From contig JAGYMQ010000123.1 of NCBI GenBank assembly GCA_018400535.1, positions 1-54,697 on the forward strand: a stretch of 54,697 nucleotides of DNA, given 5' to 3'. Numbering within the stretch: the stretch's first letter is position 1; the number at the start of each line of letters is the position of its first letter. The DNA comes from Candidatus Cloacimonadota bacterium. GTDB taxonomy: Bacteria; Cloacimonadota; Cloacimonadia; Cloacimonadales; TCS61. Positions 988-49,239 of the stretch are shown one piece after another. The notes beneath the pieces were generated by a model. That model saw nothing but the letters and a program-made list of their open reading frames with translations. It had not been told where the DNA came from and ran no database searches. A program made the translations under genes and the position numbers.

Positions 988-3900
988 ATGAGGTTAAGAA
1001 TTTGTCTTTGTATGATCTTTATGTTTTCGGTGGCTTTTATTTTTTCCACAGAATCTGAAATTTCCTATGAAAAAATCGATCCCGCTTCGCTGGAATTAAC
1101 TTTTGAGCTTGGAGATTTTGAATTACAGAATATTCAAATTGCTGGAAAGGTCTTCACTCAAATCATATTTTCAGGAGAATTACGCACAAAGCAAAAAGGT
1201 TACGCAGCTCTACCCTATCTTCACACAGCGCTGAAACTTCCAGACCAGAAGAATTTTTCTTCCTCGATCAAGATCACAGATTCAGAAGTTATCACATTGA
1301 AGCATCCTTTGTTGCCCTCGCGCGGAACGCTATATCGCGATCAAGATCCTTCTGCTGTTCCCTATAAAATTTCTGCTGCATCGCAAAAAGATGAGCTTTA
1401 TCCAAAAAAAATTCACCAAACATCTGACCCTTTTATATTGCGAGATATTCGTGGCTTGAACGTTTTTATCCATCCTTTCCAATATAACGCTATCAAAGGT
1501 GAATTACATATTCATAAAAAGGGGAAAATAAAATTGATCGAGAATGAAGAAAATCCGATAAATCCACTAATTCAAGAACGTTCCAAAATCACCCGCGAAA
1601 TGGAAGCTCTCTATCGCTCAGCTTTCATAAATTATTCAGAAACAAGATTTGAAAATGAATTGGAAGACCACGGATCGCTGCTGGTGATTTATACGAATCG
1701 AGATTCACTCGCGATCGCACCATACATCAATTGGAAAAGAGAAAAAGGCTACATTGTCTATGAAGAAGTGGTAGCTGCTGGAACGAACGTTACCAATCTT
1801 GTGCAAGACCTTTATAATACTCATAACGATATTTTATATGTGCAATTAGTAGGTGATTGGCAAGATATTCAAGCCCCGACTTCTGGTAGTGCACCAGCTG
1901 ATCCCAATCTTGGATTGGTAGTAGGAACAGATTTTTATCCCGATCTGATCGTGGGACGTTTTTCTGCCAATTCTGCAAATGAAGTTACCATCCAGATAAA
2001 TAAGGCGATTGATTATGAAAAGAATACAGAAGCTGGTGAAGATTGGTTTGAAACAGCTACCGGAATCGCTTCCAATCAAGGTCCTGGCGATGATAATGAA
2101 ATGGATAATGAACATATCGAAATTATTTATGACAACAAACTTGATCCTTTCACCTATGATTTTCACAATCCAATATTTGATCCCAGCGCAAATCCCAGTA
2201 TGGTGGCAGATGCCGTTAATAACGGAACCGGGATCATCAATTATTGTGGGCATGGCACAACGACGAGTTGGTCATCTTCCAGCTTCAATAATGGACATAT
2301 CAGCAATCTTTCCAATGGCGAGCAATTACCGGTGATCATCTCTGTGGCTTGTGTGAATGGAGCATTTGCCAGTACAGAATGTTTTGCCGAAGCCTGGCTG
2401 CACAAAGAAAATGGCGGCTCTGTGGCAATGTTTGCTTCTTCGATCAATCAAAGCTGGGATCCGCCGATGCGCGGTCAGGATTATATTAATGATCTGCTGG
2501 TGGGTGGATATGATTATAGCTTGTATCCCAATCAAAATGGAATATCTACCGATGTGCGGAAATTAACTTTCGGCTCTCTCTGTTTCAATGGTTCGATCTT
2601 GATGACCCTGGAAGAACCCAGCGGTGGACTTCCGATCCTGGAAACCTGGATCGTCTTTGGAGATGCCACTTTGGACGTGCGCACAGCAACAACGCAAGAG
2701 CTCTCATTATCCAATACAATCATCACATCGAACATTGATTTCAATACCACCGTAACTTCTGATGGTGAAGCGGTGGAAGGTGCTTTGGTCTCACTATTCC
2801 AAGCTGGAGTTTCTTTCACGGGCACTTCAGATGAAAATGGAAATGTTTCCATCTCTCATGATCTGGAAGTCGGATCAGCCAAACTCACTGTTTCTGCTTT
2901 CAATTGTGAAACGATCAATGAAGAGATTGATGTGATACCGCCCGGCGGTGCTTATTTGACGGTTAATGACTTCATCATCGATGATTCGGCTGGTAATAAT
3001 AACGGAATTGTCGAGCATGGAGAAGATATCACGTTTGACCTTAGTTTGCTAAATCTGGGAACAGAAACTGCGGAAAATGTTTCTGCCATCATCACTACCC
3101 AAAATCAATATGTTTTTCTCGAAAATATCACTTCTCAATATCCAAACATTGCCCCAAATGAACTGGAATATGGAAATGAACAATTCAGCTTTTCGATAGA
3201 TCCTTATTGCCCCGATGCTGAAGATCTGGAATTAGAGATCATGATAAATTCGGCCACAAATAGCTGGGAAGAAGTTTTTACGATCACTTCTTATGCTCCG
3301 ATCTTACAAACATCAAATCAAATCGTGATCGATAGTGGCGGAGATGGCAGCTTGCAACCTGGAGAATCAGCAGAACTTGAGATAAGCCTGATCAATCAAG
3401 GCACTGGAATCGCCGAAAATATCACCGGAATTCTTTATACCGATGATGATCTTGTCTCTATCAACCAAAATAGCGCAGAGATAGCTGCCCTGCAAAATGG
3501 AGAAACTGCTTTTTTTGATGAAACTTTTGCATTTTCCATCTCAACCGATTGCCCACCAATTCATAATATCCGTTTTAATCTTTTGCTTTCAGAAGCTTTG
3601 GGCTATTATCAAATTCTGCAACTTGATATAAATGTCGGATTTTTTGATAACGTGGAATATGGCGAAAATGGTTGGACTCATCTTTCATTAAATGTTGGCA
3701 GTGATGAATGGCATCAAAGTGAAAACCGTTGTTTTTCGGAAACTCATTCCTGGAAAGTTGGCAGCACCACAACAGGAACTTATGGAAATAATCTGATTTG
3801 CGCTTTGGAATCTCCTGAACTTGATATAAGTAGCGATGGATATTTAACTTTTCGTCATTGGCTGCAAGCAGAAACCAGTGCTTCCTATCCCGATGAATGT

Positions 3901-4755
3901 TATGATGGCGGATTGCTCGAGATCTTTTATAATGATGTTTGGACGCAGATCACGCCAGAAAGCGGCTATCCTTACATTACAAGAGGCGATAATAATCCGC
4001 CCTTTGCAAACGCAACACCAGTTTATTCGGGAGAAATTGATTGGGAAAGAGCATATTTTGATCTCAGCGATTATGATGGCATTATCAAAATTCGTTTCGT
4101 TTTTGGATCAGACGGAGCAGTGGCAGAAGAAGGCTGGTATATCGATGATATTGCGATCGTTGATGAAACAATGATGTTGCAACCACCAACAAATCTTACT
4201 GCGGAGAATGTTGAACCCATTGAAGCAGAAAATCTATTGAATTGGGAAGCACCATCAACAAATCCTCTCAGCTACAATGTTTATTATCGCACACAGCTGG
4301 ATGATCCATATCTTTTTCTATCAAATGTCAATGAAACTTATTTCATGCATTCTAATCTGATGGAAGATATTTATTATTATGTCGTGACAGCGCTTTATCA
4401 AGAAGGAGAAAGTCGCTTCAGCAATCCAGCGCAAACTTATACAAATGCAACAGACAGCATCGAGCAAATAATTTCCAGCAAAATGAGTCTGATGAATTAT
4501 CCCAATCCTTTCAATCCAACCACAATGATCCAATTTTCCATCAAGGAAAGTTCTGAAATTACAACATTGGAGATCTTTAATATTAGAGGACAGCAAGTTC
4601 GAACTTTGATCGATGAGAAATTGGAAGCAGGCAAACACGAGATTTTCTGGGATGGAAAAGACAAAAACGCAAAAGCCGTTGCCAGCGGATTATATTTTTC
4701 TCGCTTAAAAAATGGGAAAAACATCGCAGTGCAGAAAATGTTATTATTGAAATAG
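988..4755 (+). CDS. Secreted gingipain-type (C25) cysteine protease with type IX-like sorting tail
   Basis: This is a multidomain exported protease of 1255 aa. Residues 1-22 are a signal peptide and roughly 25-220 resemble a propeptide. The peptidase C25 domain (about 230-580) has the catalytic His in NYCGHG (H422) and the Cys in SVACVNG (C455). The 33-residue spacing equals that of gingipain R (H211/C244, from memory). Next come two CARDB-like domains (about 655-760 and 772-870), a MAM/jelly-roll-like module (about 885-1062) and a fibronectin III-like domain (about 1065-1150). A C-terminal FlgD-like/type IX sorting tail (about 1165-1255) carries NYPNPFNPTT and ends KMLLLK. PorU, the T9SS sortase, is also C25, but this protein carries a tail like a cargo protein, so a secreted protease is the better reading. 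A strong RBS fixes the start, and a terminator follows. Confidence 0.9.
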   Translation: MRLRICLCMIFMFSVAFIFSTESEISYEKIDPASLELTFELGDFELQNIQIAGKVFTQIIFSGELRTKQKGYAALPYLHTALKLPDQKNFSSSIKITDSEVITLKHPLLPSRGTLYRDQDPSAVPYKISAASQKDELYPKKIHQTSDPFILRDIRGLNVFIHPFQYNAIKGELHIHKKGKIKLIENEENPINPLIQERSKITREMEALYRSAFINYSETRFENELEDHGSLLVIYTNRDSLAIAPYINWKREKGYIVYEEVVAAGTNVTNLVQDLYNTHNDILYVQLVGDWQDIQAPTSGSAPADPNLGLVVGTDFYPDLIVGRFSANSANEVTIQINKAIDYEKNTEAGEDWFETATGIASNQGPGDDNEMDNEHIEIIYDNKLDPFTYDFHNPIFDPSANPSMVADAVNNGTGIINYCGHGTTTSWSSSSFNNGHISNLSNGEQLPVIISVACVNGAFASTECFAEAWLHKENGGSVAMFASSINQSWDPPMRGQDYINDLLVGGYDYSLYPNQNGISTDVRKLTFGSLCFNGSILMTLEEPSGGLPILETWIVFGDATLDVRTATTQELSLSNTIITSNIDFNTTVTSDGEAVEGALVSLFQAGVSFTGTSDENGNVSISHDLEVGSAKLTVSAFNCETINEEIDVIPPGGAYLTVNDFIIDDSAGNNNGIVEHGEDITFDLSLLNLGTETAENVSAIITTQNQYVFLENITSQYPNIAPNELEYGNEQFSFSIDPYCPDAEDLELEIMINSATNSWEEVFTITSYAPILQTSNQIVIDSGGDGSLQPGESAELEISLINQGTGIAENITGILYTDDDLVSINQNSAEIAALQNGETAFFDETFAFSISTDCPPIHNIRFNLLLSEALGYYQILQLDINVGFFDNVEYGENGWTHLSLNVGSDEWHQSENRCFSETHSWKVGSTTTGTYGNNLICALESPELDISSDGYLTFRHWLQAETSASYPDECYDGGLLEIFYNDVWTQITPESGYPYITRGDNNPPFANATPVYSGEIDWERAYFDLSDYDGIIKIRFVFGSDGAVAEEGWYIDDIAIVDETMMLQPPTNLTAENVEPIEAENLLNWEAPSTNPLSYNVYYRTQLDDPYLFLSNVNETYFMHSNLMEDIYYYVVTALYQEGESRFSNPAQTYTNATDSIEQIISSKMSLMNYPNPFNPTTMIQFSIKESSEITTLEIFNIRGQQVRTLIDEKLEAGKHEIFWDGKDKNAKAVASGLYFSRLKNGKNIAVQKMLLLK

Positions 4756-22837: not shown

Positions 22838-22855
22838 TTTTTTTTGGAGGTTTTT

Positions 22856-25090
22856 ATGAAAAGATTTTTTCTGATCACTTTTTTTGCTTTTACGTTACTT
22901 TCTGCAAAAGAAAAAGGATTAACTAATATTTTACCAGAAGAAAATTCCTTTGTTGGATCAAAAGCAAAGCCACATTTTTCTACTACTGAAAAAACAATGA
23001 GCTCAATTTCCCCAACGAGACCATCGCGTGAAAATTGGCAGCTGGTCGATTCTTTATTCTTTGATTATTATTTGAAACCTGGCGATCACTTTGGAGTCCA
23101 ATTTGATCATAATGTAAATTCGATCACTTCTGTTTCCAATTTTATCGATTTGCTCACGTCAGAAGCAGAAACTGCACTGCAAAAAACACCAAAATGGTTG
23201 CGACCTGCTCTTCGTAACAAATTAGGTTTACTGGACTCTGCTGACCAAAACGAACTTGCTGCTGTCATCAATAATTCCTTCGATCCTTACATTGATGAGA
23301 TCGCCTATTCCATCGCTCATTCTTCAGCAGAATTTCTCAGCTCAAACTTCTGCTATCCGCAAATTTTTGAGCTAAATGCGATTAAAATATATTCTGCTGA
23401 TAATAACTTAGATTACGTGGAAATTACTGATTATGGCACTTCTACAACAGATGAAAATTATTATTCAACAGCAAAATATTGGAAGATCAATGCAAATGGT
23501 GAAACTATTCAATTTGAAATTCCTAAAGAAATTTATTATTTATACGTCGTCCATCCCAAAATCACTGATGAGATCGTTTCCTACATTGATCCCGATATCA
23601 TTGAAGACAATACAACGCATCAAAATAATATCACCGAACCACCAAACGGCAAATTCTGGCGTGAATTTCTCTTCAGTCAAGCTGATGCAGGTTATCCTAT
23701 TTTGGAATTAGAATTAGCTGAAACAAGTATCTTGTGGGATGACAGCGGAAATGCAAACGACACAGCAATCCATAAAATAACAGGTTGGATCAATGTTTCG
23801 ATGAGTTTCACTTCCAATTCTGAAAGACCTCATCAACCAGTGCGCATCTACCGCAAACACATCGGCCGCTGCGGTGAATATGCAGACCTAACTTCTGCAG
23901 CCACACGTTCTGCATTGATTCCCTGCACGAGTGTTCTCAGCTATTCAGGAGATCATACATGGAACGAATTTTGGAACGAAGAATGGATTCATTGGGAACC
24001 TGTAAATGGCTATTATAATAATCCTCTGGTTTATGAAAATGGCTGGGGAAAAGTCTTTGGCTCAGTCTTCGAAATCCGAAGTGATGGCTTACTCTCCCCC
24101 ATCACAGAAAGATATTCTGAAGGAATTGCCACGATCACACTCTATGCCAAAGATGCTGAAGGAAATCCGATCGATGGTGCATTTTTTATCCTGAAAACAG
24201 GAACTCCCGGTTTGGTTTATGACAATTTTGGCTTCTCCGATGAAGAAGGAAAATATATCTTCAAAGTTGGTGAAGGTCGCTCCTATTATGCGCGCATGCA
24301 ATCTGCCATCGGTGATGATCCAGCAACCGTCAGTGAATATAGTTTACTCACAGATAATGCTCTCGATGGTGAAGAATATGAATTTGTCTTTACTGCTGAT
24401 GGCACAATGCCAGATCTCGATTTTTCCAGTATCAATGCTCCAGAAGATACAGAAGACGATTTCCAGATCATCTTTGAATTTGCCGCTCAAAAACAAATAA
24501 TTCACGGAAATTTCATTTTCGATGATATCGACGAAACACAGTTCTTTGCAGATCAAGATGGCGGTTCTACAAACTTCTTTATGACAGACGAACTTTCTTA
24601 TCTCGTTTATGATGTGGGTGGTAGTTTTGAATCTTTCAACGAAATGCTCCAGATCCCAGCTGGTTCTATAGAATTTGAAATACCAATCTCAGAAAATTGG
24701 TTTGGATTCTGGGACAACAGCTTTGCGCTCAATAATCCTGTTTATCTGCAAGGATCAGCAAAACTTTTTGAATACATCGAAACAGAAGCAGGAAATGAGA
24801 TTCAATCAAAACCAACAATTGTTCTTTCGAATTTTCCCAATCCGTTCAATCCTATGACAACGATTTCTCTGGAAATCTCTGATACTGTGGAAAATGCAGA
24901 ATTGACAATTTATAATATTAGAGGACAAAATATACGTAGATTCCAATTAGCAGACCTAAAAGCAAAAAAACATAATATCTTCTGGGATGGAAAAGATGGA
25001 AAAGGAAAATCCGTTTCCAGCGGTATTTATTATTACCGTTTCCAGTCAAATGACCTAAGCCGATCCAGCAAAATGATCTTGTTGAAATAA
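22856..25090 (+). CDS. Secreted transglutaminase-like protein with type IX-like sorting tail
   Basis: This 744-aa exported protein has a signal peptide at about 1-18 (RFFLITFFAFTLLSA). A transglutaminase/papain-like core lies in the middle. Its Cys is in GRCGEYADL (C339), its His in GDHTWNEFW (H367), and Asn384 in WEPVNG sits where the third catalytic residue (usually Asp) is expected. A carboxypeptidase-regulatory-like beta domain follows (about 420-490), then a C-terminal FlgD-like/type IX sorting tail with NFPNPFNPMT, ending KMILLK like the C25 protease. An ATG with ggagg at 22846-22850 sets the start. The substrate is unknown. Such domains act as proteases or crosslinkers of surface protein. 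Confidence 0.85.
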   Translation: MKRFFLITFFAFTLLSAKEKGLTNILPEENSFVGSKAKPHFSTTEKTMSSISPTRPSRENWQLVDSLFFDYYLKPGDHFGVQFDHNVNSITSVSNFIDLLTSEAETALQKTPKWLRPALRNKLGLLDSADQNELAAVINNSFDPYIDEIAYSIAHSSAEFLSSNFCYPQIFELNAIKIYSADNNLDYVEITDYGTSTTDENYYSTAKYWKINANGETIQFEIPKEIYYLYVVHPKITDEIVSYIDPDIIEDNTTHQNNITEPPNGKFWREFLFSQADAGYPILELELAETSILWDDSGNANDTAIHKITGWINVSMSFTSNSERPHQPVRIYRKHIGRCGEYADLTSAATRSALIPCTSVLSYSGDHTWNEFWNEEWIHWEPVNGYYNNPLVYENGWGKVFGSVFEIRSDGLLSPITERYSEGIATITLYAKDAEGNPIDGAFFILKTGTPGLVYDNFGFSDEEGKYIFKVGEGRSYYARMQSAIGDDPATVSEYSLLTDNALDGEEYEFVFTADGTMPDLDFSSINAPEDTEDDFQIIFEFAAQKQIIHGNFIFDDIDETQFFADQDGGSTNFFMTDELSYLVYDVGGSFESFNEMLQIPAGSIEFEIPISENWFGFWDNSFALNNPVYLQGSAKLFEYIETEAGNEIQSKPTIVLSNFPNPFNPMTTISLEISDTVENAELTIYNIRGQNIRRFQLADLKAKKHNIFWDGKDGKGKSVSSGIYYYRFQSNDLSRSSKMILLK

Positions 25091-38845: not shown

Positions 38846-39576
38846 AATGTTTTCCGCTGAACAAAGTGGAACATTGCGATCGCAGCTGCCGTAGCAACAT
38901 TGAGTGATTCCATCTTTTTTGAAATGGGAATTTTGATGTAATCATCTGCAATTTCCAGATTTTTTTTCGAAATTCCAAAAGCTTCCGAACCCAAGATCAA
39001 GATCAAATTTTCTTTTGGTCGCGAATATTGAAGTATATTTTCAGAATTATCCATAGCAAGCGCCAGCTTTATTGCATTTTGTTTTTTCAGCCAAAGATGA
39101 TCTTTGACGATGAGTGGCAATTTAAACACACCACCCAAAGAAGCTCTGACGACTTTTGGATTGTAATATTCGCAACAAAAAGGCGAAAGCACGATTCCAT
39201 CCATATCAAAAGCAAGCGCAGTCCTGATGATCGTTCCCAGATTTCCTGGTTCTTTGATATCATCAAGATATAATAGAAATTTGTTACTTTGGAGAGGAAT
39301 GAATTTTTTTTTCACTACAGCAGCTACCTTTTGAGGTTGTCTCGTGTTTGTGATGTGAGTTAACTGCGCTGTTGTGATCTGATAGGTTTCTTTAGCAAAA
39401 AAGTTCATTTTATCTTCAGGATCAACCAGATAAAGTTCTTCCAGAATAATTCCATAAGAAAGAACTTGTGAAATCAAGCGTTTTCCTTCCAACAAAATAA
39501 ATTCGCTCTTCTCACGATATTTTTTTTGTTTGAGTTTGGAAAGTTCTTTTACTTTAGTTTTCGATAATTTTTCCAT
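38842..39576 (-). CDS. TrmH/SpoU-family RNA 2'-O-methyltransferase
   Basis: The 244-aa protein has the SPOUT methyltransferase motifs: NLGTIIRTALAFDMDG (motif 1), ILGSEAFGIS (motif 2) and IPISKKMESLNVATAAAI (motif 3). An N-terminal extension (about 1-95, with LEGKRLISQ) matches the substrate-binding domain of rRNA members such as RlmB. The target (rRNA or tRNA) cannot be told from sequence alone. Its ATG shares one base with the stop of the HD-GYP gene. Confidence 0.9.
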   Translation of the reverse strand: MEKLSKTKVKELSKLKQKKYREKSEFILLEGKRLISQVLSYGIILEELYLVDPEDKMNFFAKETYQITTAQLTHITNTRQPQKVAAVVKKKFIPLQSNKFLLYLDDIKEPGNLGTIIRTALAFDMDGIVLSPFCCEYYNPKVVRASLGGVFKLPLIVKDHLWLKKQNAIKLALAMDNSENILQYSRPKENLILILGSEAFGISKKNLEIADDYIKIPISKKMESLNVATAAAIAMFHFVQRKTL

Positions 39577-41168
39577 TATGAGTGATAGATCGATTTGATG
39601 GTCTTGATATCAACATTATCGATTTGCGTTGGTTGCAAAAATTCTTTTGCATAAATCATATACAAGCCCGAATCCAGAAGAAGATCGAGAAGATGAGCAT
39701 CGATCTCGCCATCATTAACCATATAAGCGAGGATCTTTAAGGCATCAGTGAGTGTTCTTGCTCTTTCCTCTCTAATATAGGGCCGATCAGAAGCAGTGAG
39801 TGCTTCATAAATATCTGCTAGAGCAATGATACGAGACTGGAGAGGAATATTTTGTGCTTTTTTATGAAAAGGATAACCGCTTCCATTCAGCTTTTCATGA
39901 TGCTCAGAGGCATATTGTGGAACATTCTTGAATTTTTTGGGATAGGTTAGTGCATTCAACATTTCGTGAGTGATCAAAGCGTGTTCATCGATGATATCTT
40001 TTTCTTCTGGAAGCAAAGTTCCTTTTTCGATCGCCAGATTTTTTGCTTCTTCTGGCGTGATCAAGATATATTTTTTCCCATGAAAATTATAGGAAAAATC
40101 AGCAATTCTTTTAATGCGATCAAAATCTTCTTTGCTCAAATATTCACCACCAAAATTTACACGAGTGATAAATTCTTTATCAGATTCAAGATTTTCTAAA
40201 TCCTTTTGCAATTTCTCACGAATATTCCGATCTCTGGTTTGGATCATTTTTTCTTTAAGAATAATTTCTATGATCTCAAATCTCATTTCTACAAGTTTGA
40301 TACGATCACAGATCGTTTCGAGTTTTGTGGATTTATCTCGAATATGAATAGGGGTGGTTATTTTACCAATATCGTGCATCCAACCAGCAATGTTTAATTC
40401 TTGCAATTCATCTTCAGAAAATTTAACTTTTTGATAAAAACCCTTGTCTTCTTGAATTGATTGAGCGATCTTCTCTGATAAATGCGCGACCCGATTTATA
40501 TGACCACCTGTATATTTTGATTTGTGATCGATTGCATTCGCGATGCTTTTGATGAATTGCATCAAGAGATTTTCTAAGCCTTCGATCAATTTTCTATTCG
40601 TCAAAGCCACTGCCGCAAGTGAAGCGAGAGAAGTGAGTGTCGAAAGATGATCATCAGTAAAAGCGATAATGTTTCCCTCTTCATCCAAAGGATTGATCAA
40701 TTGGATAACGCCAAGTAGTTCTTCCTCGTGATCAAGCATCGGAATTGCTGCCATCGATTTGGAATAATAATCGTGGTTCTTATCATAATTAATTGTTCCG
40801 CTATTATCGAAAATATCCTGATGATAGGCATCTTCGACGCTGCAAGCTTTACGGGTGTGCGCCACGTAGGAAGAAAAATTTTTGTAAATGGGATTTTTAT
40901 TTTCATCATAAAGAGGGACGCTATGCCAGCTGGCAGTATCAGCGACGCCTAATTCCAGATTCATAGAAAAAGTGCATATTATCTTGAAATCTAAGGCATT
41001 TCCATCTTCAGAAAGCGTGTAGATCGTTCCGCCATCACAATTTGTGAAAGACATAGCTGCATCCAAAACCATTTTAAAAAATTTATTGATATCTTTCTCA
41101 ACCGTCAAAGCAATTCCTATTTTCGTCATATTCTTAACATGATTAAATAATTTTTCTTGTGGATTCAT
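39576..41168 (-). CDS. GAF domain HD-GYP phosphodiesterase
   Basis: This 530-aa signalling protein has an N-terminal GAF domain (about 15-190, including TNCDGGTIYTL) and a C-terminal HD-GYP domain. The HD motif is in GWMHDIGKI, and the GYP region is HHEKLNGSGYP followed by RIIALADIYEALTASDRPY. HD-GYP enzymes hydrolyse c-di-GMP or related dinucleotides, and the diagnostic residues are all present. No membrane segment is visible, so the ligand sensed by GAF is intracellular. The start is the ATG at 41168 with gagg 5 nt upstream. It is divergent from the operon that ends with MotA/MotB. Confidence 0.92.
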   Translation of the reverse strand: MNPQEKLFNHVKNMTKIGIALTVEKDINKFFKMVLDAAMSFTNCDGGTIYTLSEDGNALDFKIICTFSMNLELGVADTASWHSVPLYDENKNPIYKNFSSYVAHTRKACSVEDAYHQDIFDNSGTINYDKNHDYYSKSMAAIPMLDHEEELLGVIQLINPLDEEGNIIAFTDDHLSTLTSLASLAAVALTNRKLIEGLENLLMQFIKSIANAIDHKSKYTGGHINRVAHLSEKIAQSIQEDKGFYQKVKFSEDELQELNIAGWMHDIGKITTPIHIRDKSTKLETICDRIKLVEMRFEIIEIILKEKMIQTRDRNIREKLQKDLENLESDKEFITRVNFGGEYLSKEDFDRIKRIADFSYNFHGKKYILITPEEAKNLAIEKGTLLPEEKDIIDEHALITHEMLNALTYPKKFKNVPQYASEHHEKLNGSGYPFHKKAQNIPLQSRIIALADIYEALTASDRPYIREERARTLTDALKILAYMVNDGEIDAHLLDLLLDSGLYMIYAKEFLQPTQIDNVDIKTIKSIYHS

Positions 41169-41187
41169 AAACACCTCATCTAAAATA

Positions 41188-41286: not shown

Positions 41287-41883
41287 ATGATAAATGCGCT
41301 GATATTAGCAGCTGGTAGATCAAGTCGAATGGGCTCTGAGAAAGCCCTGCTACCAATCAATCAATCCAGCTTCATTGAGCACATTATAAAAAAATTAGAT
41401 CACGTCGCAGCTAAAATTTTCATCGTTCTGGGAAAAAATTTTGAGCGAATTAAATTTATCCTCTCTGAACTTGATATTCCCTGTCATCTCGTGAAAAATG
41501 AAAACAGCGAACTGGGTATGTTTTCTTCCATCCAAAAAGGACTACGATCAGTTCCCAAAAATTATCCTGTACTGTTGCAGATGATTGATCAACCATCGAT
41601 TCCACTCCAGATCTACCAAAAATTGATACAAAGATATTCTGGCAAAGAATTGCTTATCCAACCATCTTTCCAGAACAAAGCAGGTCATCCGCTGCTATTA
41701 TCACCAAAACTCATCGATATTATCTTATCAAAAAGTGTTGGTTCTAATCTGAAAAATGTTATTAATGAATTTTCAGCTGAAAGAAAATTCTTGGAAGTTT
41801 TTGATGAGAGCATCCTGGAAAATATCAATACAAGAGAAAAATATTTGAGGATAAAAGAAAAATATGAAAGATCAATTTATTGA
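41287..41883 (+). CDS. MobA/MocA-like nucleotidyltransferase
   Basis: The 198-aa protein is of the molybdenum-cofactor cytidylyl/guanylyltransferase type. The nucleotide loop is LILAAGRSSRMGSEKALLPI, and QMIDQPSIP supplies the metal-binding Asp. MocA-like members attach CMP to molybdopterin for molybdenum hydroxylases, and the adjacent xdhC supports that reading. It overlaps xdhC by 20 nt. No molybdoenzyme is in the window. A sugar-nucleotide role cannot be fully excluded. Confidence 0.85.
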   Translation: MINALILAAGRSSRMGSEKALLPINQSSFIEHIIKKLDHVAAKIFIVLGKNFERIKFILSELDIPCHLVKNENSELGMFSSIQKGLRSVPKNYPVLLQMIDQPSIPLQIYQKLIQRYSGKELLIQPSFQNKAGHPLLLSPKLIDIILSKSVGSNLKNVINEFSAERKFLEVFDESILENINTREKYLRIKEKYERSIY

Positions 41884-42691
41884 AGTTCTGGAAAAAGCAA
41901 TCGCAAAAAAGAAAAAAGGCACACCTTTTGTAATTGCCACTGTTGTGCAAGCAGAAGCACAATCTCCCGCCAGAACGGGATTCAAGCTGATCTTTTTTTC
42001 TGATGGAAATTTTTTGGGGACAGTTGGTGGAGGTGAACTGGAAAGACTGGTTTTACAAAAATGCGAAGAGCTTTTGCAAACTGAAGATAATGCTTTTTTA
42101 GAATTTCAATTAACTGACGATGAAAGTGGCATCGGAATGGCTTGCGGAGGTCAAGCAAAAGTTTTCTTTGAATATTTTGGAACAGATAAAAAGGTATATC
42201 TTTTTGGAGCTGGTCATTTGTGTAAAAGTACTGTTCCATTGCTGAATTCCCTGGGATTTTCCTGTATTGTGATCGATAATCGAGCAGAGTTTGCTCAAGC
42301 TGAAAAAATACCAGAAGCCAGTGAAATTTACAATCGTGACTATTTAGAATTTCTGCAACAGACCAATTTTCAGAGAAATGATGCAATCATCATTTTCACA
42401 CATAATCACAGTTTTGATCATCAAATCTTGAATTTTCTTGCTGAAAAAAAGATCAATGTCAAATATATTGGAATGATCGGTTCAAAATCGAAAGTACAAG
42501 GAACTCTGGCCTATATCAAAAAAAATGGTTATGAACTTCCCAAAAATCTTTATGCACCCATCGGATTAAATATCGGAAAGACAACAACTTCAGAAATTTC
42601 CTTAGCGATCGCTGCCGAAATATTAGCTGTCTTCAATAACGTGAAAAATATAAACTTTCTCAAAGACAAATTCAAGGGTCAAAAAAAATGA
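41864..42691 (+). CDS. XdhC-family molybdoenzyme maturation protein
   Basis: The 275-aa protein is of the XdhC/CoxF type, which inserts sulfurated molybdenum cofactor into xanthine dehydrogenase-like enzymes. The N-terminal domain has GTVGGGELE and GIGMACGGQAKVFFEYF. The C-terminal Rossmann domain has YLFGAGHLCKSTVPLL and YIGMIGSKSK. It overlaps mocA upstream and the Ig-repeat gene downstream (ATGA), so it is translationally tied to both. The co-operon with a surface protein and a motor is unexpected. Confidence 0.88.
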   Translation: MKDQFIEVLEKAIAKKKKGTPFVIATVVQAEAQSPARTGFKLIFFSDGNFLGTVGGGELERLVLQKCEELLQTEDNAFLEFQLTDDESGIGMACGGQAKVFFEYFGTDKKVYLFGAGHLCKSTVPLLNSLGFSCIVIDNRAEFAQAEKIPEASEIYNRDYLEFLQQTNFQRNDAIIIFTHNHSFDHQILNFLAEKKINVKYIGMIGSKSKVQGTLAYIKKNGYELPKNLYAPIGLNIGKTTTSEISLAIAAEILAVFNNVKNINFLKDKFKGQKK

Positions 42692-45006
42692 GATATAACT
42701 TTATTCTGTTTTTTATGTTCTTCTCAATTCTGATGTTTGCCGATGAAGAACCACCCTACGTTGAACCTCTCTATCCAGCGAGCAATGCGGTTGGAATTCC
42801 AGTCAATACCGATATCACTTTTCATATGTATGACGATGAGGATGGTGTTGATATAAATTCGGTCGAAGTTGCTATCGATAGCATAATTTACGATTACACA
42901 AGCGGTTACTTTTTTTTTAGTGGATCGCCGCAGGATTTCATCATCACGATCAATCCACCAAATAATTTTCAGTTTGAACAAATAGTTAATATCCAGATAG
43001 ATGGACAAGATCTAGCAAATCCGCCAAACGTTATGGATTCATACAGCTATTATTTTCAATGTATCGAGGACCTGCAGCCGCCTTATGTTGGCGAACTCGA
43101 TCCTCAGATGAATGCAACAAACGTTGCTTTTGATACAAATGTCGCTTTCCATATCTATGACAGTGGTGTCGGCGTCAATATCAGCTCGGTGCTTGTCACG
43201 ATCCAAAACGTTAATTATACTCATAACGATCAGAATTTTAACTATTCAGGTAATCCCAATGATTATAACGTTGAGATCGATGTTCCTGTTAATTTTGGTT
43301 TGGGAGATACAGTTTTTGTGCAGATCAACGCAGACGATATCAACGGAATGACAATGTCAGAATTTTCCTATGAGTTTTTTGTGATAGAAGATGTGGAACC
43401 GCCTTATACTGGAGAATGGCAACCGCAACCGAATTCGACGAATAATCCAATCGATACAGACGTCAGTTTCAATATCTATGATAATATCGAAGGTGTCGAT
43501 ATTAACAGCGTAGAAGTTGTGATAGACGATGTACTTTACACTCATTTAAATACTTCTTTTTCCTATTTTCCGATTTCAAATGGCTATTCTATCACAATTG
43601 ACCTGGTTTCAAATTTTGTTTACAACGATTCAGTTTCGGTAGCTATTTCTGGAAATGATCTGGCTCAGCCTTCAAATTTTATGCAAACTTATAATTTTCA
43701 ATTCTTTTTGGAAATAGATGATCAAGCTCCCTATCTGGAAAATATTTTACCTGAACCGGGATCAAATGGAGTTCCGCTCGATTCTAATATCGAATTCAAT
43801 ATTTTGGACAATGAAACTGGCGTTGATATCACTTCGCTTTTGGTCGAAGTTAATGATTCGCTTCACAATATCAATAGTGGAAATCTGACCTATACGGGCG
43901 ATCCCGATGATTATCGGATAATTCTGGATTTGCAAAATAATTTTGTTTTCGGTCAACAAATTCAAGTCAATATCAGTGCAGCCGATCAGGCAGAACCAGC
44001 AAATCTATTGCAAGATTTTAGCTTTAATTTTCTATGCTATGAGGATGCTGAGCCGCCAACGATCAGCGAAATTTCACCAACTCCAAATTCCTCAGAAATT
44101 CCGCTCGATTCCAATATCTCTTTTCATCTTCAGGATATCGGTTATGGTGTAGATATTGATTCTGTTCAAGTTATTGTAAATGATATTCTTTATTCAGTTG
44201 CGGAAAATAATCTCTATTATTCTGGTTCAATTCAAGATTATTTTATCGAGATCAATCCCGATAATAATTTTTCCGCTGGTGACACGGTGAATGTTTCGAT
44301 CGAAGCAGCTGATCTGGCCAGTCCTTCTCATCAGATGCCAACTTACAATTTTTCTTTTCAATGTCTTGCTATCGATCAGGAAGCTCCTTTTGTCTGGGGA
44401 GTATTTCCAGAGAATGGAGCAGAAGAAATTCCAGCAAACACCAGCATTCGTCTGCATATTTCCGACGAAATTAGCGGAGTTGATTCTGCTTCGATCAATT
44501 TTCAAGTGGAAAATGAGATAATATCAGCTTATTCTCTGAGCGCAGATTCTTCAGTGGGAAGTGGTTATAGATTGGTTTATCAACCCGATATTCCATTCAC
44601 AGATGAGCAGATCGTGAATGTGTCAGTAACAGCTCAAGATCTGGCTATAATTCCAAATATGATGCAAACTTACGAATTTTCATTCCAATGTAAAAGTGAA
44701 ATAAATACCGAAACGATAGAAGAAAGAGTGGAAATCGTGCCGCACGTTGTGAGCTGGAACGATGAAAATTGTGAAATAAAGATCTTCACAACCAAAATGG
44801 TAGAAGAAATAGAATGCCGAATTTTAAATCGTAAAGGAAGACAGATCGCTGAATTATCAACATCTTCCATCAATAGAGAAATTCCTAAAATTTATCTTTG
44901 GAATAAACGAGATCACAATGGTAAAAAAGTGAGCGGTGGATTTTATATCTATCAAGTCAGGATCCAAAAAAAAATCTATCAAGGAAGTGTAATAATCGCA
45001 AGGTAG
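42688..45006 (+). CDS. Exported Ig-repeat surface protein with FlgD-like tail
   Basis: This 772-aa protein has a signal peptide at about 1-18. It then has six tandem Ig-like (Big_5/SbsA-like) repeats of about 108 aa at 21-128, 130-236, 237-344, 346-453, 455-563 and 565-668. Each begins with a variant of EPPYVEPLYPASNAVGIPVN, carries FHMYD and GVDINSV motifs, and closes with a YNFQF-like strand. The C-terminal 90 residues (about 680-772) form a FlgD-like/type IX-type tail (RDHNGKKVSGGFYIYQVRI), without the NPFNP motif of the other two tailed proteins. It should reach the outer surface as a rod about six domains long, an adhesin or stalk. It is tightly coupled to xdhC and to the outer-membrane gene 4 nt downstream. 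Confidence 0.85.
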   Translation: MRYNFILFFMFFSILMFADEEPPYVEPLYPASNAVGIPVNTDITFHMYDDEDGVDINSVEVAIDSIIYDYTSGYFFFSGSPQDFIITINPPNNFQFEQIVNIQIDGQDLANPPNVMDSYSYYFQCIEDLQPPYVGELDPQMNATNVAFDTNVAFHIYDSGVGVNISSVLVTIQNVNYTHNDQNFNYSGNPNDYNVEIDVPVNFGLGDTVFVQINADDINGMTMSEFSYEFFVIEDVEPPYTGEWQPQPNSTNNPIDTDVSFNIYDNIEGVDINSVEVVIDDVLYTHLNTSFSYFPISNGYSITIDLVSNFVYNDSVSVAISGNDLAQPSNFMQTYNFQFFLEIDDQAPYLENILPEPGSNGVPLDSNIEFNILDNETGVDITSLLVEVNDSLHNINSGNLTYTGDPDDYRIILDLQNNFVFGQQIQVNISAADQAEPANLLQDFSFNFLCYEDAEPPTISEISPTPNSSEIPLDSNISFHLQDIGYGVDIDSVQVIVNDILYSVAENNLYYSGSIQDYFIEINPDNNFSAGDTVNVSIEAADLASPSHQMPTYNFSFQCLAIDQEAPFVWGVFPENGAEEIPANTSIRLHISDEISGVDSASINFQVENEIISAYSLSADSSVGSGYRLVYQPDIPFTDEQIVNVSVTAQDLAIIPNMMQTYEFSFQCKSEINTETIEERVEIVPHVVSWNDENCEIKIFTTKMVEEIECRILNRKGRQIAELSTSSINREIPKIYLWNKRDHNGKKVSGGFYIYQVRIQKKIYQGSVIIAR

Positions 45007-45010
45007 GACT

Positions 45011-46432
45011 ATGAAAAAAATTTTGATATTATTATTTTTATTGCCGATCTTTTGTTTTAGCTATGATTTTGATAATGGCGGAGTGCGCAGTGCAGCTCTC
45101 GGTTTCACCGGGATCAGTTCAGCCAAAGATGCTTCGGCAGCAGTTTGGAATCCAGCTCTGCTACATCAATTCAATTATTTCGAATTGATCACTGACACGC
45201 GTCCCTATTTCATTCAAATGGATAATGATAATATCTATCAGAATTTCGCCTATTTAGCTATTCCAACCCGATTTTTCCCAGGAAGTTTTGGTTTGACAGG
45301 TGGATTGTTCAATTCCAACGATTTTGATGAAGGAAGATTTGGTTTTCATTTTGGCAGCAAAGTTTTTCCCAAAAAATTGAAAAATCGCTTTGCAGCTGGA
45401 ATCAGTGTTTATAACTACTTTGTGCGTTATGGTGGAAATACTAATGAGAATTCTAATGCAATTGATCTGGAATTGGGATTGCATTACAATCTGGATTCTC
45501 TTTCCAATATTGGCCTAAAATTGCGAAACATTATGCAATCTGATCTTGGTATCGAAGAACCCGACAAATTACCTTTCTCTGTCGGGATCGGCTACAATCG
45601 TTATTGGCGCAGATTTAATTTTGCTTCCGATCTGTCTTATTTCCAGAATGACAAAGAATTTAGATTACATTTAGGATCAGAATATTTACTTGCCGAAAAT
45701 ATCATCTTACGAGCTGGAATGAACAATAATTATTTCACAGGTGGTTTCGGCATCGATCTTTTTTCTCAATACTGGCAAGATTTTAAAGACCAGAATTATT
45801 CTCCTAAGTTTATCAATATTGTGTTAGATTATTCTTTCCAATATCAGCTATTTGCTGAACTTGATAACGATTATTTTTATCTGGGAAATGAATTAGAATC
45901 AGATTTTGGTGACCATTTTTTTGGATTAAAGATCGATTTCGGAAACAGTGTTCAAAGAGAAAATAATTTTCTTTCAGGATTCCAAAGTGATTTAGGAAGG
46001 CCGCTCAACGTCAGCATCGATACTGTTTTTGTGGAAAAAGTCAAGATCGACACGCTGGTGCGAGAAAAGACGATCTACGATACGATTCGAATTTACGAAA
46101 AAGTTGTAGATGAACAAGATATCCAGGATTATCTTGATGCAGAAAAAGAAAATATCCGTCGTGTGGAAATGCAAAATGTCAATCAAGCAGCGATGCATCT
46201 AAACAAAGCGCTGGAACATTATTATCAGGAAGAATATTATCTGGCGATAACAGAATGTGAGAAAGCCATTACGATCGCTCCCGATTTTTCGCTTTCCTAT
46301 CTGCGTCTCGCTTCGATCTATTATCGTCTGGGAAATATGGAAGAAGCGCTTCACCAGTTGAATATCGGATTGCGAATCGATCCTGATAACGCAGAATTAT
46401 TAAAAATGAAAAAAATGTTAATCGGCGAATAA
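45011..46432 (+). CDS. PorV/PorQ-like outer-membrane barrel with C-terminal TPR domain
   Basis: The 473-aa protein has a signal peptide (about 1-17). The opening resembles the PorV/PorQ family: GGVRSAALGFTGISSAKDAS followed by AVWNPALL. Alternating beta-strand sequence rich in aromatic and glycine residues continues to about 335. A charged linker of DTVFVEKV/DTLVREK/DTIRIYEKV repeats (about 345-375) leads to TPR-like helix pairs (about 388-473, for example YLAITECEKAITIAPDFSLS). The barrel should sit in the outer membrane with the TPR tail in the periplasm. PorV carries tailed proteins in type IX secretion. It lies between the tailed Ig protein and the FliF-FliG-like protein. Confidence 0.8.
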   Translation: MKKILILLFLLPIFCFSYDFDNGGVRSAALGFTGISSAKDASAAVWNPALLHQFNYFELITDTRPYFIQMDNDNIYQNFAYLAIPTRFFPGSFGLTGGLFNSNDFDEGRFGFHFGSKVFPKKLKNRFAAGISVYNYFVRYGGNTNENSNAIDLELGLHYNLDSLSNIGLKLRNIMQSDLGIEEPDKLPFSVGIGYNRYWRRFNFASDLSYFQNDKEFRLHLGSEYLLAENIILRAGMNNNYFTGGFGIDLFSQYWQDFKDQNYSPKFINIVLDYSFQYQLFAELDNDYFYLGNELESDFGDHFFGLKIDFGNSVQRENNFLSGFQSDLGRPLNVSIDTVFVEKVKIDTLVREKTIYDTIRIYEKVVDEQDIQDYLDAEKENIRRVEMQNVNQAAMHLNKALEHYYQEEYYLAITECEKAITIAPDFSLSYLRLASIYYRLGNMEEALHQLNIGLRIDPDNAELLKMKKMLIGE

Positions 46433-46442
46433 GGAATTTTTT

Positions 46443-47843
46443 ATGAAGAAAATATTGTTACTGTTCTTGATCTTATTGGCAATTGGATCGTCAGCAGAGA
46501 TCAAGATCGAAACGGTGCGAGAGATCGAGGCCGAAAGATCGATGGCAAGCTGGATCGAATCGATTCTGGAACCGATCATCGGAGAAACGATCGTGATCGC
46601 CAATCTCACTTTGAAATATCCTTCCAGCAAATTGGAAGTATATGGTTCTGCGCTCGATGAAAGCAAAAGTCTGCCCGGTCTGCCTATCGCCAAATCAAAA
46701 TCAGTGATGCCGACAACGATTGACGAAGAAGAGACTTATCCCACTCGCATTGTAAAAAAAGAGATTACGGTTTATGTGAAAGAAAAGATCGCAGAAGATA
46801 TGAAAGATTTTTTGATCCAGAATATCACACTTTGGCTTGATCTGAATCCAGAAAAGGGAGATCAGCTCAATATCCAGAATATCCAAACTGTTTCATCTAA
46901 CATTTCAAAAAGCACGGAAAAAACAGACATTTTCTTGAATCAAAATATCTTCATCATTTTTGGCTTGATATTGCTGCTTTTGATCTTTCTCTTCATCGTG
47001 ATGTTTCTCTTGGGAATGAACAATCTTTCCAAAGCTGTACAAAATATCAGCATTAGCGATATTGGAAAGGTATTACGCGTGAAAGGAAATTTAGGTTATA
47101 ATGTCCCTAATGTTGAAAAAAGACCGTCATTTGATTCGAGTAAACCAATTCCGATCAAAGTTATCAACGAAAAAAAGGAAAACGATATGACTGATCTTGA
47201 TTATCTGGAAGATATGAGTCTTCCAGGTTTTTTTGATCTGATGCAAACTTTGACAGATCAGGAAAAAATATTCGTATTGATCAATATTTCGGAAGAGCTT
47301 GCCAGTAGATATTTCAAGCAATATCCTGAGATTAGAAAGAAAATCTTACCACAAATGCTGAGTAAAAAATCTATTCCCCAACAAAATATCAAAGACCTTT
47401 ATAAAAAATTATCTCAGAAATTTGCTGATATCGGAAAAAGTGAAAAACATGTTTATAATAGTTCGAAACAAATCATCAAAATTCTGAATTCTCTGAATGA
47501 TGAAGATGCGCAAGAAATTCTGGCAGAAATTGAAGCAGAAGATTCATCAAGTTACGTTGAGATCAGAAAAAAAGTTCTTTTATTGGAAGATATTCCGACG
47601 CTTTCTTCCGAGCAGATCGAATGTGTTTTACAAAAGGCTGATTACACAGAGCTGGCAAAATTCCTGAAGATCAGCGCTGATGATCTAGCTAAAAGATTTT
47701 TATCGATCCTGACGCCAAGAGCAAAAGCGATCTTAAGTGAAGAGATGGAATTTCTGGATAGCATTTCTGAAGTTGAAAAAAACAACATCAAATCTGAAAT
47801 GCTGATGAAATTCAGAGAAATTTTGGGTTATCTAAAGGATTAA
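46443..47843 (+). CDS. Reduced FliF-FliG-like fusion (candidate rotor)
   Basis: In this 466-aa protein I read residues 1-18 as a signal peptide. Residues 25-150 form a periplasmic domain resembling the last ring-building part of FliF (ERSMASWIESILEPIIGE, then LDLNPEKGDQLNIQNIQTV). A single membrane helix is at about 168-191. The cytoplasmic part at about 255-466 resembles FliG middle and C-terminal domains. The end is strongest: EIRKKVLLLEDIPTLSSEQI, then LQKADYTELAKFLK, then LTPRAKAILSEEMEFLD, which parallels the FliG torque helix. Its Arg (R426) and paired acids (E433, E434) match the charged positions that contact MotA. The early FliF rings and FliG N-terminus are missing. It is 10 nt after the barrel gene (RBS aaggaa) and 2 nt before motA. 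Assignment is by eye; a profile search is needed. Confidence 0.78.
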   Translation: MKKILLLFLILLAIGSSAEIKIETVREIEAERSMASWIESILEPIIGETIVIANLTLKYPSSKLEVYGSALDESKSLPGLPIAKSKSVMPTTIDEEETYPTRIVKKEITVYVKEKIAEDMKDFLIQNITLWLDLNPEKGDQLNIQNIQTVSSNISKSTEKTDIFLNQNIFIIFGLILLLLIFLFIVMFLLGMNNLSKAVQNISISDIGKVLRVKGNLGYNVPNVEKRPSFDSSKPIPIKVINEKKENDMTDLDYLEDMSLPGFFDLMQTLTDQEKIFVLINISEELASRYFKQYPEIRKKILPQMLSKKSIPQQNIKDLYKKLSQKFADIGKSEKHVYNSSKQIIKILNSLNDEDAQEILAEIEAEDSSSYVEIRKKVLLLEDIPTLSSEQIECVLQKADYTELAKFLKISADDLAKRFLSILTPRAKAILSEEMEFLDSISEVEKNNIKSEMLMKFREILGYLKD

Positions 47844-47845
47844 TT

Positions 47846-48583
47846 ATGAAAGGTTCAGTGATTATCGGATTATTTTTTGGTTTCGGCTTGATCATTCTGG
47901 TGATCTTTCTCACACAACAGCCAGGTCTTTATGTCAATCTGGGAGCTTTAGCGATCACGCTTGGTGGCACACTCGCAGCTCTGATCATCTATTTTTCACC
48001 AATGGCTCTGCAAAAAGCATACATCTCTTTTCGGAATATTTTTCGTTACAAACAATACTATCCTTCAGATATGCTTAATCTGGTTGTAAATACATGTCGC
48101 AGATCCCATAAAATGTCGATAAAAGAACTTCTGGAAGACCCATCAATTCAGGGAATTCCTTTTTTCTACAAAGCGATCAATCTGGTGGCAGATGGCGTGG
48201 AAGCGGAAGATATAAATTATATTTTGCAAAGAGAAAATCGGACGATCACAGAACGCAATATCATTGCCGAAAGAGTTTTTCGCATTGCTGGAAGTTTCTC
48301 GCCCATGTTCGGTATGATGGGAACAGTCATTGGTTTGATCTCGATGTTGCATCAAGTGAAAGATCCTGCTGCGATTCCTGCGGCAATGGGATTAGCATTA
48401 GTTACAACCTTGTATGGATTAATTTTATCTGCTCTGGTCTTTAAACCGATCTCTGGAAAAATTAGAGATAAAAATCAGATCGATACACGAGTGCGCGATA
48501 TCATCATCGTCGGAGTGCTGGCGATCCGCGCTGGAGAAAATTCTCAAATACTAAAAGAAAAATTGTTGGGTTATATCACATAA
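47846..48583 (+). CDS. motA: MotA/TolQ-family stator protein, MotA type
   Basis: MotA forms the ring around MotB in an ion-driven stator. It is 245 aa with four membrane segments (about 4-22, 30-50, 150-170 and 178-198). The cytoplasmic loop motif is ADGVEAEDINYILQREN, then RVFRIAGSFSPMFGMMGTV and MGLALVTTLYGLIL. The two conserved prolines are present (P153, P201). Basic and acidic residues at R85/R86 and E94 fall near the E. coli R90/E98 torque pair. The size and loop fit MotA rather than ExbB/TolQ. Its stop shares one base with the motB start. Confidence 0.92.
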   Translation: MKGSVIIGLFFGFGLIILVIFLTQQPGLYVNLGALAITLGGTLAALIIYFSPMALQKAYISFRNIFRYKQYYPSDMLNLVVNTCRRSHKMSIKELLEDPSIQGIPFFYKAINLVADGVEAEDINYILQRENRTITERNIIAERVFRIAGSFSPMFGMMGTVIGLISMLHQVKDPAAIPAAMGLALVTTLYGLILSALVFKPISGKIRDKNQIDTRVRDIIIVGVLAIRAGENSQILKEKLLGYIT

Positions 48584-49239
48584 TGAGCAATATTGATAAA
48601 TTAAGCGGAATCTCACTGGAAAGACGTCTGGACGATCTTAACGACGAAACTTCCGAAAATGAAAATTTGCTGGATGTTATGGTACCTTATGCAGATCTGA
48701 TGGCTTTGCTACTTGTCTTTTTTGTCTTTTTTTATGTGATCACTGATTTCCAAAAGAACCAAAAAATTGTGCAACAAAACAAACAAATCGTGCATCAGAA
48801 TGAGAAATTGAAAGAATTAGCTGTTCTGGATAGCTTATTAGATTTTCAAGAACAAATGATCCGTATTCCGGGAGCTGTTCTTTTCAATAGCGGTGAGGCT
48901 CTTCTGAAATGGGAAGCTTTGCGCGTGCTCACGCAGGTTGCTCAAAATATCAAAAATAAAATTGCCAATGAACCCGGCTGGCAGATCAGAGTGGAAGGAC
49001 ACACAGATAATCTTCCAATTATTGGAGGAAGATATTCGTCAAATTGGGAACTTTCGACCAGGCGAGCTTTGAATGTTGTTCGTTTTTTTATCGATAATAA
49101 TTTCTTTTCTCCAGAACAGATGCAGGCAATGGGATATGGTGAATTCAAACCTTTAGTACCAAATGATACTCCCGAACATCAGGAAAAAAATCGGAGAGTA
49201 GAGATCCATCTGATCAAAAGTTTCTCGATCGAAAAATAA
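48583..49239 (+). CDS. motB: MotB-type stator protein with peptidoglycan-binding domain
   Basis: MotB anchors the stator to the cell wall and carries the ion path. It is 218 aa. A single membrane helix (about 33-55) contains the essential Asp in PYADLMALLL (D38). A plug/linker segment (about 56-90, Gln-rich) follows, then an OmpA-like peptidoglycan-binding domain (about 92-210) with RVEGHTDNLPI, NWELSTRRALNVVRF and KNRRVEIHLIK. The functional Asp and wall-binding residues are intact. It is last in the operon and ends one base from the convergent pyrG stop. Confidence 0.93.
   Translation: MSNIDKLSGISLERRLDDLNDETSENENLLDVMVPYADLMALLLVFFVFFYVITDFQKNQKIVQQNKQIVHQNEKLKELAVLDSLLDFQEQMIRIPGAVLFNSGEALLKWEALRVLTQVAQNIKNKIANEPGWQIRVEGHTDNLPIIGGRYSSNWELSTRRALNVVRFFIDNNFFSPEQMQAMGYGEFKPLVPNDTPEHQEKNRRVEIHLIKSFSIEK

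Follow-up and report, generated by a model that had tools for sequence, protein, structure and literature searches.

The flagellar motor (FliF, FliG and the MotAB/PomAB stators) and the Tol-Pal and Ton systems (TolQR, ExbBD) draw on a common superfamily of 5:2 ion-driven motors, and the flagellar stators are load-sensitive. To our knowledge, every FliG rotor described so far belongs to a flagellum, the known gliding motors (GldLM and AglRQS) have no FliG-type rotor, and the Agl-Glt system has no FliG or FliF homologue. In Myxococcus, this Agl-Glt system is a motility complex that spans the envelope, works without flagella and contains an ion-driven motor related to MotAB (AglRQS; PMC13104615). 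Type B substrates of the type IX secretion system (T9SS) of Bacteroidota use a dedicated carrier of the FadL family, usually encoded just downstream (PMC9143113, PMC12618676); each type B substrate of F. johnsoniae uses a carrier that is usually encoded in that position (PMC12618676), and SprF ties SprB to a moving track (PMC12635249). Here we describe a five-gene set that combines elements of these systems, found in a stretch of 54,697 nucleotides (hereafter the window) that corresponds to contig C123 of a cloacimonadote genome (2.62 Mb in 146 contigs, 95.7% complete). The make-up of this conserved gene set points to a so far undescribed machine that would move or power a surface protein.

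An initial annotation of the window had reported five adjacent genes on one strand, encoding an exported Ig-repeat protein, an outer-membrane barrel with a periplasmic TPR tail, a FliF/FliG-like protein, MotA and MotB. The five open reading frames were found again at the same positions on the plus strand, with the same spacing (gaps of 4, 10 and 2 nucleotides and a 1-nucleotide overlap). In what follows they are called the module, and their features (with the evidence in brackets; AF2 stands for AlphaFold2 models) are:

42688..45006, plus strand: Ig-repeat surface protein, 772 residues, with signal peptide, five Big_5 repeats and a T9SS type-B-like C-terminal domain (domain search, ortholog alignment)
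44737..45003, plus strand: sorting-signal-like C-terminal domain of the Ig protein, residues 684-772 (alignment; CHU_C and TIGR04131 matches)
45011..46432, plus strand: outer-membrane barrel of FadL/PorV fold with a periplasmic helix and TPR tail, 473 residues (domain search, AF2, structure matches)
46112..46423, plus strand: long periplasmic helix and TPR tail of the barrel protein, residues 368-471, with the invariant Cys416 (AF2, alignment)
46443..47843, plus strand: putative rotor protein, 466 residues, with signal peptide, FliF RBM3-like periplasmic domain, transmembrane (TM) segment and FliG middle and C-terminal domains (profiles, AF2, Foldseek)
46509..46892, plus strand: FliF RBM3-like domain, residues 23-150, alpha-beta-beta-alpha-beta (AF2, Foldseek, hhalign)
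46668..46697, plus strand: SLPGLPIAKS motif, residues 76-85, in the loop between two RBM strands (alignment of 19 orthologs)
46944..47012, plus strand: single TM segment of the rotor protein, about residues 168-190 (hydropathy, AF2)
47199..47828, plus strand: FliG middle and C-terminal (M+C) region, residues 253-462, with EHPQ replaced and R426 and an acidic pair kept (profile to 1lkv, motif comparison)
47846..48583, plus strand: MotA-type stator subunit, 245 residues (match to PomA 8brd, trees)
48583..49239, plus strand: MotB-type stator subunit, 218 residues, with a TM segment carrying Asp38 and an OmpA-like peptidoglycan-binding domain (domain search, alignments)
48694..48696, plus strand: codon of MotB Asp38, the ion-binding Asp (aligned to the PYAD motif of solved MotB)

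The third protein had been described as a single-pass FliF/FliG-like protein, and the signal peptide, the single TM segment (a hydropathy peak of 3.51 at residues 169-187, within an AF2 helix spanning residues 163-200) and homology to FliG_M and FliG_C were all recovered. A profile of 19 orthologs aligns with the solved FliG structure 1lkv over residues 253-462 (E 2.4e-39). In the AF2 model, the periplasmic domain is made of helix 25-46, strands 49-58 and 102-112, helix 118-132 and strand 141-146, and a Foldseek search of the model against the PDB returned FliG first, followed by RBM3/S-ring structures of FliF (probability 1.00; E-values for the FliF structures from 7.7e-4 to below 1e-2), with no further family at E <0.05. 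When the protein was compared by hhalign with FliF from flagellated Cloacimonadota, an earlier run with small alignments gave a weak result (P 3e-4) and deeper alignments a clear one (score 46.8, P 5.8e-6; P 1.8e-6 for the RBM3 part alone), against a maximum score of 19.1 in 20 column-shuffled controls; RBM1 and RBM2 of FliF gave no match. The FliF half of the annotated fusion therefore holds for RBM3 and the TM segment that follows it, and does not extend to the rest of FliF; the idea that the N-terminal domain could be a full MS ring was rejected on the same grounds. As judged from profiles and models, the protein has the organization RBM3–TM–FliG(M+C), that is, a FliF–FliG fusion devoid of RBM1, RBM2, the first TM segment (TM1) and the FliG N domain.

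Additionally, the rotor protein has features of its own. In the SLPGLPxAxS motif, S76, PGLP, A83 and S85 are invariant across the 19 aligned orthologs, including one from a metagenome-assembled genome (MAG) labelled 'Gemmatimonadetes', and we propose this loop as a contact site. The EHPQ motif through which FliG binds FliM is present in all 12 flagellar FliGs compared and in none of 17 rotor proteins. The conservation of FliG-like torque charges, also noted initially, was found on the rotor side, where the equivalents of FliG R281 and D288/289 are kept (the torque-helix Arg being R426, with the R297 position, in the GPVR segment, lost), and not on the stator side, where the MotA E98 equivalent is not kept. 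Compared with the flagellar motor, the locus thus shares FliG M+C with the torque-helix Arg and acidic pair, as well as the RBM3 fold followed by a TM segment, but it carries RBM3, TM and FliG in a single protein, without EHPQ and the domains listed above.

The identification of MotA and MotB was borne out, both being full length and of flagellar type. MotA aligns with PomA (8brd) over residues 5-244 (E 4.5e-35), and it was placed in a tree with 13 ExbB/TolQ, 17 flagellar and 17 module sequences, some of the flagellar ones being structurally solved proteins from Vibrio, Clostridium, Aquifex and Paenibacillus. E. coli-type stators, which fall inside the other flagellar stators (PMC12505986), were left out. 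In this tree, module and flagellar sequences are separated together from ExbB/TolQ (100/100), with a flagellar clade (99/97) and a module clade (94/85), and the module MotA lies outside the flagellar MotA clade of its own phylum. In an earlier and less broad tree the module was paraphyletic, so the exact sister relation between module and flagellar stators is probable rather than proven. The 100/100 split led us to reject a Tol/Ton-type motor, from which the module also differs in having a dedicated FliG-type rotor. The likeness to Agl-Glt (an ion-driven motor related to MotAB, set in a complex that spans the envelope and needs no flagellum) is likewise limited by the grouping of the module MotA with flagellar stators and not with ExbB/TolQ types. 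Since the MotP/PomA models match the window MotA far below their cutoffs, no equivalog name was given to it, and since the PomA-like Thr pattern also occurs in C. sporogenes MotA, an assignment to Na+ or H+ was dropped and no ion is named. Most orthologs have a basic residue at the position of MotA R90, where the window protein has His with a Lys beside it. In MotB, Asp38 is intact, as annotated: it aligns with the ion-binding Asp of the PYAD motif of solved MotB, an Asp kept in all aligned orthologs but one, and the window protein has the MotB_plug and the OmpA domain as well.

These components are found in a family where a flagellum seems to be missing. Searches for FlhA (PF00771), FliF_C (PF08345) and FliM/N (PF01052) gave no match in any of 35 sampled genomes of the family, host included, so no full flagellar set was found elsewhere in the genome. 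The same searches were positive in the flagellated controls and in other families, with ten genomes matched there (eight in the case of FliF_C), FlhA being found in 10 of the 59 genomes of the wider sample. Among the window open reading frames examined, no hook, rod or filament gene was noticed, no separate search having been made for these. The family thus lacks flagella that other families of the order possess, a distribution expected if the locus were a decaying flagellar remnant, in which leftover pieces of fliF, fliG, motA and motB had been fused by deletion. This explanation is extremely improbable and was largely refuted: many genera keep the frames open, the stator falls outside the flagellar MotA clade of the phylum, a signal peptide and a conserved SLPGLP motif are peculiar to the rotor protein, and G046, alone among the sampled genomes, carries flagellar genes and the module together, with separate MotA genes. 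The non-flagellar rotor–stator reading of the initial annotation is supported by the missing flagellar markers and by the FliG/FliF structural match, and also by the linkage of the motor genes to the Ig and barrel genes, which sets the module further apart from the flagellum.

The first two genes place the motor beside a putative surface adhesin. The Ig protein has the export signal and the repeats that had been predicted (signal peptide and five Big_5 repeats, E 1.7e-24), and its orthologs range from 772 to at least 2,815 residues, with a varying number of repeats and a constant C-terminus. The last 90 residues are the most constant part of the alignment, ending in QGSVIIAR in the window and in QGSIIIAR-like sequences in the orthologs. 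This C-terminus is CHU_C-like: all 11 members tested match CHU_C (best E 2.6e-10) and 7 of 11 match the type B model TIGR04131, the window domain by itself scoring 22.5, below the Pfam CHU_C cutoff of 27. Hits of the C-terminal profile to WD-repeat proteins in the PDB were attributed to the summing of tiny matches and regarded as spurious. The barrel and its periplasmic TPR tail were also confirmed, by a PorV/PorQ-like match (E 1.5e-10), a TPR match and an AF2 model in agreement with both; structure matches of the model include FadL (E 2.7e-11) and the T9SS protein PorV (2.8e-10, 8gl6, and 7.8e-9), and the tail is predicted as helices 368-405 and 409-471 (pLDDT mostly above 90). Cys416 in this tail is invariant (15/15), and the rotor protein has no conserved Cys; a twin-Cys link of the SprF–GldK kind was considered and set aside, and no disulfide mechanism is claimed. 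The translocon SprA (TIGR04189) is present in the host (511.8 bits, cutoff 200) and in 50 of the 59 genomes.

Given the type-B-like C-terminus, the carrier-fold barrel and SprA, the Ig–barrel pair resembles the SprB–SprF pair, which gives a better footing to the initial proposal that a surface protein is moved or energised. As in Bacteroidota (PMC9143113, PMC12618676), a type-B-like adhesin gene is followed by that of a FadL-fold carrier barrel, in a genome with SprA. The differences are that the module barrel has a TPR tail and belongs by sequence to the PorV/PorQ family rather than to PorP/SprF, and that the motor is MotAB plus a FliG-type rotor and not GldLM; GldM_1st gave no match over cutoff in the 59 genomes, in a search that matched no control genome either and so had no positive control. 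The window also encodes two other proteins that carry type A sorting domains of the T9SS, at 988-4755 and 22844-25090 (32.6 and 30.7 bits, NCBI cutoff 23), the former also matching a PorU-like peptidase region.

The same evidence could be read as a motor that energises T9SS secretion or release of the Ig protein, with MotAB and the rotor pushing the barrel–adhesin complex from SprA in place of GldLM for this one cargo, and the adhesin static thereafter. The PorV carrier fold of the barrel, the presence of SprA with GldM undetected in that uncontrolled search, and the fact that ejection of the carrier–substrate complex is the energy-requiring step of the T9SS (PMC12635249) all agree with this possibility. 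We nevertheless regard it as unlikely: SprA is nearly universal while the module occurs in a minority of genomes, so that it cannot energise the T9SS in general, a motor reserved for a single cargo would be costly, and paralogous motor sets come without any cargo.

How tightly adhesin, barrel and motor belong together can be judged from the relatives. A search for the rotor type was positive in 24 of 125 genomes of the phylum (counted from the results table), and most of the named genomes carrying the locus are Candidatus Cloacimonadota MAGs, Tenebribacter davisii and T. mawsonii being two of them. Eighteen genomes have the genes in the order Ig–barrel–rotor–MotA–MotB (the window and G002, G005, G014, G015, G020, G023, G024, G028, G029, G031, G033, G046, G104, G105, G106, G116 and G117), in some of them cut by contig ends, and rearranged, linked versions occur in four more. 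In G016, G025 and a Neomarinimicrobiota-labelled MAG (G126, L080), the Ig gene comes after MotB and, on contigs that extend far enough, precedes the barrel gene; in G035 the Ig–barrel pair is divergent, beside the motor genes. Over 59 genomes, barrel-TPR and rotor are both present in 15, with 2 having the rotor only, 3 the barrel only and 39 neither (Fisher p 2.4e-9, without phylogenetic correction). A gene set kept in so many genomes, with such an association of barrel and rotor, is linked by more than chance. Outside the phylum, a 'Gemmatimonadetes' MAG (G125, ARS67) encodes a rotor homologue of the same architecture, at the end of its contig (L083 9818-11335); it also has a separate flagellar FliG, and the wider search in its phylum covered two genomes.

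Complete sets coexist, however, with paralogous rotor–MotA–MotB sets that have neither Ig nor barrel (such as L051 4002-8133 and L049), in G023 and G032, with rotor pieces at contig ends in G014 and G024. These sets speak for a view in which motor and Ig–barrel are mere neighbours and rotor–MotAB works with another periplasmic partner, for instance a TPR protein. This is very unlikely in our opinion: the linkage survives changes of order and strand (G016, G025, G126, G035), barrel and rotor co-occur at the uncorrected p-value given above, and, of the genomes with a barrel and no rotor, G001 and G051 have contigs ending at or beside the pair and G045 has a barrel piece only.

The reading towards which we lean is that of a non-flagellar, ion-driven, envelope-spanning rotor–stator machine that turns or drags adhesin–carrier complexes in the outer membrane, with gliding-like motility as its probable role. 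In this machine, MotA and MotB would form a stator anchored to peptidoglycan through MotB, and the rotor protein would be a minimal fusion of the RBM3 collar domain of the MS ring and a TM helix to the torque domains of FliG. The rotor would be expected to assemble into a ring, as RBM3 of FliF does with about 33-34 subunits, its RBM3 part lying in the periplasm and its FliG part in the cytoplasm, where MotA would work against FliG-C and MotAB torque would set the ring in rotation. The RBM3 part would grip, probably by way of the SLPGLP loop, the periplasmic TPR tails of the PorV-like barrels, each bearing a long Ig-repeat adhesin that the host T9SS would deliver by means of the type-B-like C-terminal signal, in analogy to SprF and SprB. 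The turning ring would then rotate or drag the carrier–adhesin set in the outer membrane, resulting in gliding-like motility or in active movement of a surface protein. An adhesin with a freely varying number of repeats and a constant C-terminus bears on this scheme, and a paralogous motor set that adjoins a TPR protein gene fits a contact between TPR and RBM3.

Several observations weigh against this machine. A ring alone would rotate on the spot. The module is present in 24 of 125 genomes while SprA is nearly universal, and the motor occurs apart from adhesin and barrel in the paralogous sets of G023 and G032, as well as in G107, which is also without Ig and barrel; the set in G023 (L051) is followed instead by a TPR (YfiO-like) gene. 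On the stator side, the position equivalent to MotA E98 is not conserved among orthologs, the module MotB of G046 (L078 9501-10082) has Asn in place of the ion-binding Asp, and the MotBs of G116 and G117 have other short domains instead of OmpA (L081 9579-10001 and L079 9490-10029); one of these replacements is LysM-like by eye and not called by Pfam, which finds the MotB plug alone. The AF2 model of the rotor is of moderate confidence (mean pLDDT 71.8, pTM 0.33), and the SLPGLP loop is among its low-confidence parts.

Directly upstream of the Ig gene (41287-42691) lie genes for a MobA-like nucleotidyltransferase and an XdhC/CoxI-like protein, the latter overlapping the Ig start codon by 4 nucleotides, so that the transcription unit may begin upstream; as the XdhC and MobA-like genes precede the module in several relatives and not in others, they look like positional neighbours. 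Directly after MotB, G104 has a gene for a mechanosensitive channel of the MscS type (L125 11088-11990), and several relatives have open reading frames of about that size; none follows MotB in the window. A second motor locus on host contig C79 (L127 2141-12164) encodes a TolQ-like protein, two TolR/ExbD-like proteins and a 468-residue protein of no family, with two large TPR proteins upstream, and resembles an AglRQS/Glt-type set. Finally, divergent from the MobA–XdhC–Ig run, a gene at 39576-41174 encodes a protein with GAF and HD-GYP-type domains, likely a c-di-GMP phosphodiesterase and a candidate regulator of the module, and it is syntenic in several relatives.

This last gene would also suit a surface sensor or tether, in which MotAB ion flow or ring position reports the load on the adhesin, or the outer membrane is pulled to the wall as in Tol-Pal, with no sustained rotation. 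Adhesin, barrel, wall-binding MotB and a cytoplasmic domain would together make a path for force, and the load-sensitivity of flagellar stators is in line with such a role. The MotA of the module, however, comes from the torque-generating flagellar lineage and not from TolQ, and the Arg and acidic residues of the FliG torque helix are kept, which makes a sensor or tether distinctly unlikely.

Going beyond this rotor–stator machine, we tentatively raise the possibility of an undescribed class of trans-envelope rotary systems, in which an RBM3–FliG ring, driven by a stator that is sister to the flagellar ones sampled, would spin a carousel of T9SS-delivered adhesins; its origin may lie in a rotor–stator module that branched off before an export apparatus was added to the flagellar motor. 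The open literature searched yielded neither a description of such a machine nor a FliG–MotAB system other than flagella, subscription papers and preprints lying mostly outside this coverage. If the reading is correct, the RBM3–FliG fusion with MotAB, without FliM, FliN and an export gate, would be the smallest flagellar-type rotor known, and it would mean that a rotor and its stator are able to function without type III export machinery, a matter long debated in the context of flagellar origins. It would also add a second kind of motor for T9SS-delivered adhesins and would provide a likely mechanism of motility or surface movement for a largely uncultured phylum.

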